A stretch of DNA of 64,000 nt from Allobosea sp. BH3 (GTDB lineage Bacteria > Pseudomonadota > Alphaproteobacteria > Rhizobiales > Beijerinckiaceae), in assembly GCF_025499465.1 (NCBI RefSeq), contig NZ_JAIMCA010000004.1:496001-560000 (forward strand), written 5' to 3'. Position 1 is the first letter of the stretch. Each line of letters starts with the position of its first letter. Below, one piece after another: positions 1,448-57,390 of the stretch. Below the pieces are notes generated by a model. The model was not told where the DNA came from. It saw nothing but the letters and a program-made list of their open reading frames with translations, and made no database searches. The translations under genes and the position numbers were made by a program.

Positions 1448-1465
1448 GCCTGCCTCACAGAGTTC

Positions 1466-1578
1466 AGCCCTCATCCTGAGGAGGCCCGGAGGGCCGTCTC
1501 GAAGGATGGTCCAGTTGGTTCCGGACCTCCTGAAGCATCCTTCGAGACGCCGCTTCGCGGCTCCTCAGGATGAGGGCT
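1466..1578. repeat. Dispersed palindromic repeat, family A (complete copy)
   Basis: A nested inverted repeat fills the gap between two plus-strand genes. Outer arms of 17 bp (AGCCCTCATCCTGAGGA at 1466-1482 and its perfect complement at 1562-1578) enclose inner arms of 14 bp (CGTCTCGAAGGATG at 1495-1508 and its complement at 1536-1549). The same sequence recurs at 18091, in frame inside uvrC at 52438, and as a half copy at 57358. It can fold into one long hairpin. It resembles the non-coding palindromic repeats common in Rhizobiales and has no open frame of its own. Confidence 0.85.
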
Positions 1579-18090: not shown

Positions 18091-18138
18091 AGCCCTCATC
18101 CTGAGGAGCCGCGTCAGCGGCGTCTCGAAGGACGGGGG
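18091..18138. repeat. Palindromic repeat family A, half copy
   Basis: AGCCCTCATCCTGAGGAGCC followed by CGTCTCGAAGGACG matches the left half of the element at 1466-1578. The right half is missing. An internal CCGCGTCAGCGG dyad is present. It lies between the convergent leuD and DUF1501 genes. Confidence 0.75.
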
Positions 18139-50937: not shown

Positions 50938-53061
50938 ATGCAGGCCATGAGTCGCGAACGTCAGGACGATCTGCCACAGGACGAGTTCGAGGACGAGGAG
51001 GAGGCCCTCCCCGCCACCGAACCCGTGCTCGCTCCCGAGGCGGCACCCGGCGCGCTCAAGGCCGGCATCGAGGTCATCCAGCAATTCGCCAAGCACCTGC
51101 CGAACGGGCCGGGCGTCTACCGGATGTTCGATCGGGCCGGCGAGGTGCTCTATGTCGGCAAGGCTAAGAGCCTGAAGAACCGCGTGACCTCCTATGCCCG
51201 CGGCATGGCGCATACCAACGCCGTCGCCCGGATGATCGCCGAGACGGCGAACATGGAGTTCGTCACCACCGGCACCGAAACCGAGGCCCTGCTGCTCGAG
51301 TCGAACCTCATCAAGCAGCTCAGGCCGCGCTACAACGTGCTGCTGCGCGACGACAAGTCGTTTCCCTATATCCTCCTGAGCGGCGACCACGAGGCGCCGG
51401 CGCTGGTCAAGCATCGCGGCTCGCGCCATCGCAAGGGCGACTATTTCGGCCCCTTCGCCTCGGTCTGGGCTGTTACGCGCACCATCGATGCGCTGCAGAA
51501 GGCCTTCCTGATCCGCACCTGCTCGGATTCCTTCTACGAGAACCGTACGCGCCCCTGCCTGCTCTTCCAGATCAAGCGCTGCGCCGGCCCCTGCACCGGG
51601 GAAATCCCGATCCCCGAGTATCAGGCCCTCGCCGGACAGGCCCGCGACTTCCTCTCCGGCCGCTCCTCCGCCGTGAAGCAGCTTCTCTCCGCCCGGATGC
51701 AGGAGGCTGCCGAGGAGCTGGAATTCGAGAAGGCAGCCCGCTATCGCGACCGGCTCGCCGCGCTCTCGGCCGTGCAGGCGGGGCAGGACATCAATACGCA
51801 AGGCGTCGAGGAGGCGGATGTCTTCGCCATCGACGAGCAGGCCGGCCAGTTCTGCGTCGAGATCTTCTTCTTCCGCAATCACCAGAACTGGGGCAACCGC
51901 GCCCTCTTCCCCCGCGCCGACCGCTCGCTGACGCCGGCAGAGGTGCTCGCCTCCGTCGTCGCCCAGTTCTACGACGACAAGCCGCCGCCGCGCCTCGTGC
52001 TGCTCTCGCACCCGGTCGAGGAGATCGAGCTGATCGCGCAGGCGCTTTCGGCGCGGGCCGGCCGCAAGGTCGAGGTCGCGCATCCCAAGCGCGGCGAGCG
52101 CGCCGACCTGATGGCGCACGCCCTCAAGAACGCCCGCGAAGCGCTCTCGCGCAAGCTCGCCGATAATGCCGGCCAGAGCGCGCTGCTCGCCGCGCTCGGC
52201 GCCGCCTTCGGCATGGAAAGCGCGCCCCGCCGGGTCGAGGTCTACGACAACTCCCACATCATGGGCACGAACGCGGTCGGCGGCATGATCGTCGCGGGGC
52301 CGGACGGCTTCGTGAAGAACCAGTACCGCACCTTCAACATCTCGACCGACACCATCGCGGGCGACGATTTCGGCATGATGCGCGAGGTGCTGACGCGCAG
52401 GTTCGCGAAGCTCGCGAAGGAGGAAGGCTTCTCCCTCAGCCCTCATCCAGAGGAGGCCGCCGACGCAGCCGTCCCGAAGGATGCTCCAGAGGGCGATGGA
52501 ACTTCGGCGATCATCCTTCGAGACGCGCCTGACGGCGCTCCTCAGGATGAGGGCTCACGCGGAAAAATCCGCAAGGCTCCGAAACCGCGCAAGGACGAAG
52601 ATGGTTTCCCCTCCCGCCCCGACCTCGTCATCGTCGACGGCGGCAAGGGCCAGTTCGGCGCAGCGCTCAAGATCATGCGCGAGCTCGGCGCGGCCGATAT
52701 CCCCCTCGTCGCGATCGCCAAGGGCGAGGACAGGAACGCCATGCGCGAGACTTTCCACATGGCGGGCCGCGAGCCCTTCAAGCTGCAGCCGCGCGATCCG
52801 GCGCTCTACTTCATCCAGCGCCTGCGCGACGAGGCGCATCGCTTCGCCATCGGCACGCACCGGGCCAAGCGCAAGCGCGAGACGATGAAGAACCCGCTCG
52901 ACGAGATTCCGGGCATCGGCCCCTCGAGAAAAAGGGCGCTCCTGCTGCATTTCGGCACGGTCAAGGCGATCCAGCGCGCCAAGCTCGACGACCTGATGCG
53001 CACGCCCGGCGTCAATGCCGCGACCGCCAAGGCGGTCCATGATTTCTTCCATGATGCCTGA
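50938..53061 (+). CDS. uvrC: Excinuclease ABC subunit C with a repeat-derived insertion
   Basis: 707 residues; E. coli UvrC has 610. The GIY-YIG domain ([24 protein letters not shown], in parts, from about residue 55), the UVR helix pair ([20 protein letters not shown]), the RNase H-like nuclease with [19 protein letters not shown] and [12 protein letters not shown], the conserved His in [10 protein letters not shown], and C-terminal helix-hairpin-helix motifs ([27 protein letters not shown]) are intact. About residues 501-540 ([19 protein letters not shown]...) derive from an in-frame palindromic repeat. Start may be 50938 or ATG 50947. Confidence 0.96.
52438..52554. repeat. Family A palindromic repeat inserted in frame in uvrC
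   Basis: AGCCCTCATCC at the left and GGATGAGGGCT at the right end, plus the inner CGAAGGATG / CATCCTTCGAGACG arms, match the intergenic copy at 1466-1578. Length (117 bp) is a multiple of three, no stop codon is created, and the host frame is kept. It encodes about 39 Asp/Glu/Pro/Ala-rich residues in the linker between the two halves of the UvrC nuclease domain. Confidence 0.85.
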
Positions 53062-57357: not shown

Positions 57358-57390
57358 CAGCCCTCATCCTGAGGAGCGGCCTTGAAGGGG
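57358..57390. repeat. Palindromic repeat family A, fragment
   Basis: TCAGCCCTCATCCTGAGGAG matches the left arm of the element at 1466, followed by CGGCCTTGAAGGG, a degraded form of CGTCTCGAAGGATG. It lies immediately after the MarR-type stop and ahead of the response regulator. Confidence 0.65.

Follow-up and report, generated by a model that had tools for sequence, protein, structure and literature searches.

How does a palindromic repeat that is scattered over a bacterial genome come to be read as part of a conserved repair protein, and does the protein notice it? The question is raised by uvrC (excinuclease ABC subunit C, 707 aa; 50938..53061, + strand, from open reading frame and Pfam) in the window, i.e. 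the whole stretch of 64,000 nucleotides analysed here (G000:C9:496001-560000, from a genome of 5.25 Mb). Judged by UvrC identity, the host is a Bosea, a soil bacterium: its protein and the one in an uncultured Bosea record (L031) share 94% identity. The open reading frame has no internal stop, and its product has Pfam matches to GIY-YIG, UVR, UvrC_RNaseH, UvrC_RNaseH_dom, HHH_5, and HHH_2, with the insert falling within the RNase H endonuclease match at residues 423-638. It lies in a variable linker from DDFGMMRE to PDLVIVDGG (52387..52617, + strand; 231 nt, 77 codons) that holds other repeat families in other Bosea. The initial annotation, which saw one insertion in one essential gene, was too small in scope for this reason, and "essential" is not borne out for uvrC, a gene that is dispensable in E. 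coli.

The repeat, family A, is a 118-bp palindrome (52438..52555, + strand) encoding UvrC residues 501-540. From palindrome end to palindrome end, it starts with AGCCCTCATCC at 52438 and finishes with GGATGAGGGCT at 52555, and it is built of an outer stem with arms of 18 bp, two hairpin arms that vary in sequence, an inner stem of 13 bp, and a short centre. Along the + strand, the 5' arm of the outer stem (AGCCCTCATCCAGAGGAG, 52438..52455) is followed by variable hairpin arm 1 (52456..52470; 15 nt here, 12-13 nt in several dispersed copies), the 5' and 3' arms of the inner stem (GTCCCGAAGGATG, 52471..52483, and CATCCTTCGAGAC, 52512..52524), variable hairpin arm 2 (52525..52537), and the 3' arm of the outer stem (CTCCTCAGGATGAGGGCT, 52538..52555). 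By eye, the inner hairpin arms differ between the family A copies of this genome and mostly look self-complementary. The initial annotation had rightly recognised a repeat read in frame and without a stop, yet ended it at 52554 and gave it 117 bp; at 118 bp the element is not, as had been claimed, a multiple of three on its own, and the 231 nt belong to the linker as a whole. Among the uvrC alleles, we found none with a cleanly empty site from which the net length of the insertion could be taken exactly.

Family A is dispersed, as had been supposed. A BLAST search of the uvrC copy against its own genome returned 85 rows (both orientations, self counted) that collapse to about 40 places, full elements as well as halves, the best match outside uvrC being 83% identical (E 1.3e-25); a chance resemblance of the insert is rejected on these values. 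Within the window, there is a full copy at 1464..1578 (+ strand; G000:C9:497464-497578) without coding signal across it by codon score, a half copy at 18091..18132 (- strand; G000:C9:514091-514132), and a single element end, CCCTCATCCTGAGGAG, at 57361..57376 (+ strand). Solitary halves are represented by L181, L182, L188, and L195. An exact 17-base end motif occurs 45 times in the genome; with this genome counted, 8 of the 121 genomes sampled from the order contain it. A known RNA family is rejected as well, since among 10 loci an Rfam threshold was reached by a tRNA alone.

Only few of these copies are read as protein. Among 40 places examined in the genome, codon scores supported coding flanks on both sides in one frame at two, uvrC and cobN, and left coding unsupported at the remaining ones; the search of other coding genes proposed in the initial annotation was thereby rewarded with a second in-frame copy, in CobN (L184, G000:C10:450373-453481). 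In a set of 30 family A copies outside uvrC, the cobN copy included, 12 have a length that is a multiple of three and a mean of 2.3 of six frames is open, so that in-frame coding copies would require a filter. Two open frames in other genomes include a family A copy near a possible N-terminus (ORF-based), one for a NIR_SIR protein (L205, G002) and one for a serine hydroxymethyltransferase (L210, G006).

We found uvrC in 66 of 67 Bosea genomes and could read the linker in 64 of these genes, the other two being cut near contig ends. Class labels were assigned by hand from motifs, with automatic clustering as a check, and comprise A (21), an A half plus C (3), B (11), B2 (5), D (3), a tRNA fragment (E, 8), F (2), G (1), and none (10). 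The comparison of relatives suggested at the outset thus had a divided outcome: family A or a half of it is present in 24 of the 64 linkers (three fused to C), while others of similar length carry different repeats, 19 of them from a CCTCCCC superfamily, two a CGTC-type repeat (class F), and one a repeat that we take to be RIME-like (class G). Judged by these motifs, one and the same UvrC linker is occupied, depending on the Bosea species, by a tRNA-Met 3' fragment or by a member of no fewer than four repeat families (A, the CCTCCCC superfamily, CGTC-type F, and RIME-like G). Clustered automatically at E 1e-6, the linkers fell into A with A/C (24), B with B2 and D (19), six of the eight E linkers, and smaller groups, including an F cluster of four rows, two of which were hand-labelled 'none'; at E 1e-3, clusters B, B2, and D all merge with A. 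The reading frame is kept in 62 of the 64 linkers (length a multiple of three). A frameshift, real or due to a sequencing error, seems to be present in the linker of L164 (G019) and L170 (G066), and upstream of the linker in L176 (G049).

Dispersal in a carrier genome was checked for A, B, C, F, and G (rows on both strands, uvrC copy counted), yielding 20 rows for class B in G015, 29 for C in G003, 15 and 20 for F in G045 and G037, and 15 for G in G009. Partial deletions and chimaeras occur among the linkers (L125, L127, L133, L162-L164, L136, L143, L145), some of them composites of an A half plus C (L162-L164) or of B-left plus B2-right (L145). Class E resembles the last 31 nt of the tRNA-Met(CAU) gene. 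This tRNA 3' end is read in frame in uvrC of eight Bosea (L146-L149, L137, L139, L160, and the strongly diverged L161), and in carriers G018, G022, and G006 the match between the uvrC copy and the tRNA covers 25 bases, with 1-2 mismatches. Class E is not dispersed in these three genomes, which contain only 2-3 matches each, tRNA genes included; one match in G022 falls in neither uvrC nor a called tRNA, and matches to the tRNA end in the window's genome are tRNA only. Since class E is not dispersed in the carriers searched, a landing of repeats does not fit the tRNA fragment. Outside Bosea, linkers were readable in 32 of 72 loci, the reading motif not fitting the rest; 30 of them span 27-53 residues, two are 92 and 94 residues long, and no repeat was visible by eye in these 32.

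Linker class departs from the species tree, while the flanks broadly follow it. Both an rpoB tree (58 genomes) and a UvrC tree without the linker (68 rows) were built by a quick method, and hand labels change 28 times on the former and 30 times on the latter. With automatic clusters and singletons pooled, there are 13 (E 1e-3, A and B fused), 21 (1e-6), or 23 (1e-10) changes on the rpoB tree. Among 25 close species pairs (rpoB distance <0.03), 12 have linkers without similarity at E 1e-3. A quartet of close relatives illustrates this: G051 (A), G006 (E), and G048 and G063 (both B) have unlike linkers at rpoB distances of 0.012-0.021, and 60-bp windows of their uvrC bodies mostly contain 0-6 mismatches and never more than 8. 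None of the three large clades on the UvrC tree lacks A, B, or E, and family A accounts for 16 of 21 linkers in the window's clade. Transfer of the whole gene is not favoured, since the UvrC and rpoB trees broadly agree by eye in their large clades; rows placed differently include G011, G010, G002, and G025. The rpoB stretches matched by HMM in Bosea are mostly 4041 or 4071 bp long, a 30-bp difference (e.g. L286 vs L287).

From their sequences, the loops of cobN and ispE appear to behave similarly to the UvrC linker. A cobN match was present in 64 of 67 genomes, of which 57 were fetched and 46 read in the loop (G000 and G020 included). By peptide, these loops contain A (6), F (7), C (3), H (VIPG..TRD, 13), I (VIPD..RSGIHSGA, 2), a short loop without repeat (13), or an unclear one (2), H and I being named from peptides only. 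G051 has a full F element in cobN, and G006, G048, and G063 have only 12 nt like the F end at that spot, which fits either an in-frame deletion remnant or a target resembling the element. In ispE, HMM hits end early in 9 of 67 genomes, one at a contig end, with two of the nine loci unread. Inserts comprise A in G019, G015, G046, and G049, F in G063, and another one in G064, with G047 partly read. Family A or F is in frame in the IspE loop of some Bosea (L359 of G063, L196, L197, L201, L360).

We propose that unrelated palindromic repeats have probably landed, been filtered, and been swapped in the UvrC linker, which would be a tolerated spacer without a new functional domain. The several unrelated short palindromic repeat families of Bosea are probably non-autonomous mobile DNA, copies of which would insert at random sites. 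In coding genes, only open copies of the right length in floppy loops would survive, and the few permissive loops, such as those of UvrC, CobN, and IspE, would accumulate them. Palindromes may tend to lose internal parts, so that in-frame remnants stay behind, and long-standing linker haplotypes may be reshuffled across lineages by recombination over tracts so short that little of the flank moves with them. Among 30 copies including those in uvrC and cobN, there was no consistent target-site duplication (mean 0.4 bp vs 0.23 bp in shuffled flanks, with 12.6% of flank shuffles reaching the observed mean). A RAYT-type Y1 transposase (PF01797) is absent from the window's genome and present in 6 of 67 genomes of the genus; a RAYT-driven REPIN is rejected for this genome because it has no Y1 transposase. 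Given neither a consistent duplication nor a RAYT, insertion as such is something that we infer.

A tolerated spacer agrees with what is seen of the linker itself. Constraint on it is weak, with a dN/dS of 0.50 in the A linker vs 0.06 in the 200 codons upstream (window's clade, 12 of its 16 A linkers, the four most degraded being excluded). An AlphaFold2 model of UvrC from 37 sequences (mean pLDDT 75.5, pTM 0.54) gives pLDDT <50 for residues 501-554, between a helix at 477-496 and a strand at 563-567 that leads to the conserved DGG. The match to the solved C-terminal domain 3c65 breaks off at residue 495 and continues from 555, the chain having no residues in between, and by sequence matches the solved UvrC C-terminal domains are without the 495-555 segment. 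The linker is thus predicted to be disordered, which the low model confidence fits and does not prove; the placement in a loop claimed by the initial annotation is what such a model would lead one to expect. Its claim that repeats create new protein segments holds literally, but no new function is indicated, given a dN/dS of about 0.5 and wholly different linkers in some sister species.

It is unlikely that the linker has been domesticated, with its composition or length selected, for instance as an acidic spacer tuning the nuclease. All 62 in-frame linkers, also the 10 that have no repeat, carry a negative net charge (-2 to -14) and many disorder-promoting residues; moreover, dN/dS is below 1 and the segment is positioned just before the strand with the conserved DGG. 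On the other hand, sequence, class, and length (25-95 aa with conserved ends trimmed) all change freely, and the family A reading frame used here is acidic on its own.

We also consider it improbable that each class arose by many independent insertions at a preferred target. The A copies of ispE and cobN are separate insertions, and the one in L116 (G060) looks like another within uvrC itself, from its differing arm 2 and centre. However, most uvrC A copies have a common arm 1 and centre that are absent from 10 aligned dispersed copies, and most B linkers have a common non-repeat prefix absent from four aligned dispersed B copies. Because of these shared features, each class can be read as having mainly one origin.

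The age of the classes bears on how the linkers have moved. Synonymous differences in linker/body amount to 0.356/0.294 within clades (69 pairs) and 0.417/0.351 across clades (51) for A, and to 0.323/0.301 (19) and 0.356/0.342 (36) for B. The values are 0.216/0.195 within and 0.352/0.306 across for B2 (3 pairs each), 0.340/0.236 for D (3 pairs; ratio 1.44), 0.32/0.397 for A plus C (1 pair), and 0.523/0.274 within (11 pairs) and 0.524/0.349 across (17) for E; L176 and the four most degraded A linkers were left out. With linker/body ratios of 1.2 (A), 1.05 (B), and 1.5-1.9 (E), A and B linkers are of roughly the same age as the clades, and E changes faster. As A and B linkers are about as diverged as the body at synonymous sites, no recent transfer is seen, with the proviso that donors may be unsampled and sites near saturation. 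Mantel tests of linker against body distance gave r 0.14 for A (p 0.19, n 20; r 0.20, p 0.12, n 16 within the window's clade), r 0.45 for B (p 0.0025, n 11), r 0.40 for B2 (p 0.18, n 5), and r -0.52 for E (p 0.99, n 8), hence a clear vertical signal in B only.

Exchange of linkers by short-tract recombination is our preferred but unproven explanation for their distribution, and recombination itself is weakly seen. Flank identity is not in excess in same-class pairs, even over the 36 bp adjoining the linker (53 genes, 1377 pairs; pairs without rpoB overlap, the basal clade, and L176 left out). In the eight closest different-class pairs, divergence is higher over the 60 bp immediately downstream, reaching 0.72 of baseline, compared with a mean of 0.29 (sd 0.11, maximum 0.49) in the other windows of these pairs; same-class pairs at rpoB <0.03 are also raised there (0.66 vs 0.46, n=12). 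A further reading, a doubtful one in our view, regards the UvrC linker as a trans-species polymorphism, in which a few old, unrelated haplotypes, formed from palindromic repeats or a tRNA end, would be kept through many speciations and exchanged almost flank-free, with loop diversity possibly favoured.

Quite unlikely is a single old family A insertion in the Bosea ancestor that was inherited vertically and decayed, the other linkers representing low-complexity drift. The predominance of A in the window's clade, mostly with shared derived arms and centre, would agree with it, as would the resemblance of A to the body in synonymous divergence. Moreover, the palindrome has been lost in several uvrC A copies and retained in others, the mean fold energy being -59.8 kcal/mol in the 21 uvrC copies (-22 to -97) vs -85.5 kcal/mol in 30 copies outside uvrC (cobN copy included). 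However, linker classes B, C, F, and G proved to be dispersed as well, and A, B, and the tRNA fragment are each represented in every one of the three large UvrC clades. This reading is contradicted for the whole genus and stands for the window's clade only. Very unlikely is an ancestral linker of several tandem elements of which each lineage kept one, since no two of A, B, and E were read together in any of the 64 linkers and the G051/G006/G048/G063 quartet would need recent, independent loss of all but one, even though linkers of one class match the clades in approximate age and two composite states (A-half plus C, B-left plus B2-right) exist.

A landing and swapping of repeats in permissive loops has partial counterparts in known systems. 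According to passages of PMC2229807, PMC10969869, and PMC3767692, the Rickettsia palindromic elements (RPE) and Wolbachia palindromic elements measure 100-150 bp, are dispersed, and also lie in frame in exposed regions of conserved genes. The initial annotation drew this parallel with good reason: family A is likewise a palindrome (118 bp, about 40 dispersed places) that is read in frame in conserved genes, here uvrC and cobN, and ispE in relatives. Its host, however, is Bosea and not Rickettsia or Wolbachia, and the likeness is one of description. In a paper on R. japonica, orthologous genes have an insert at the same locus, and for RPE-4/6/7 some orthologs contain different RPE groups or none, a hot spot or common origin being left open. 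Unlike in those RPE passages, Bosea alternates unrelated families at one linker between sister species.

Repetitive extragenic palindromes (REPs) inside open reading frames are described in passages of PMC3733652, including many in replication and repair genes (uvrA, uvrB, and recB among them) and different REPs at about the same recB site in two Xanthomonas; loops or linkers were proposed to be tolerant, and CGTC REPs occur without a transposase. The main text of PMC3733652 does not contain the word uvrC, mentioning 'UvrABCD' and excinuclease ABC proteins, and its passages on intragenic REPs do not describe genus-wide turnover at one loop. Unlike GTAG and CGTC REPs, family A is without either tag at its beginning (AGCCCTCATCC), and class F resembles CGTC-tagged REPs by its first four bases only. 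Family A shares inverted halves around a short centre, along with single units, with REP/REPIN and MITEs, but differs from REPINs in that no Y1 transposase exists in its own genome. Its terminal inverted repeats (the outer arms) are MITE-like, whereas MITEs differ from it in the target-site duplication, of which the 30 copies have no consistent one. In the titles and abstract starts of the open-access literature, we found no paper on palindromic repeats of Bosea or on an in-frame palindromic repeat in uvrC.

In-frame palindromic repeats are thus already known; what is new is the turnover of repeat families at one loop across a genus. One loop in 64 genomes, several unrelated repeats, and a gene that otherwise broadly follows the species amount to a replicated natural experiment, in which one can directly test the entry of repeats into coding genes, the time for which they stay there, and whether they matter to the protein. 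The length and sequence of the linker are a poor guide to kinship in genes of this kind, and dispersed repeats can go on remodelling segments of conserved proteins.
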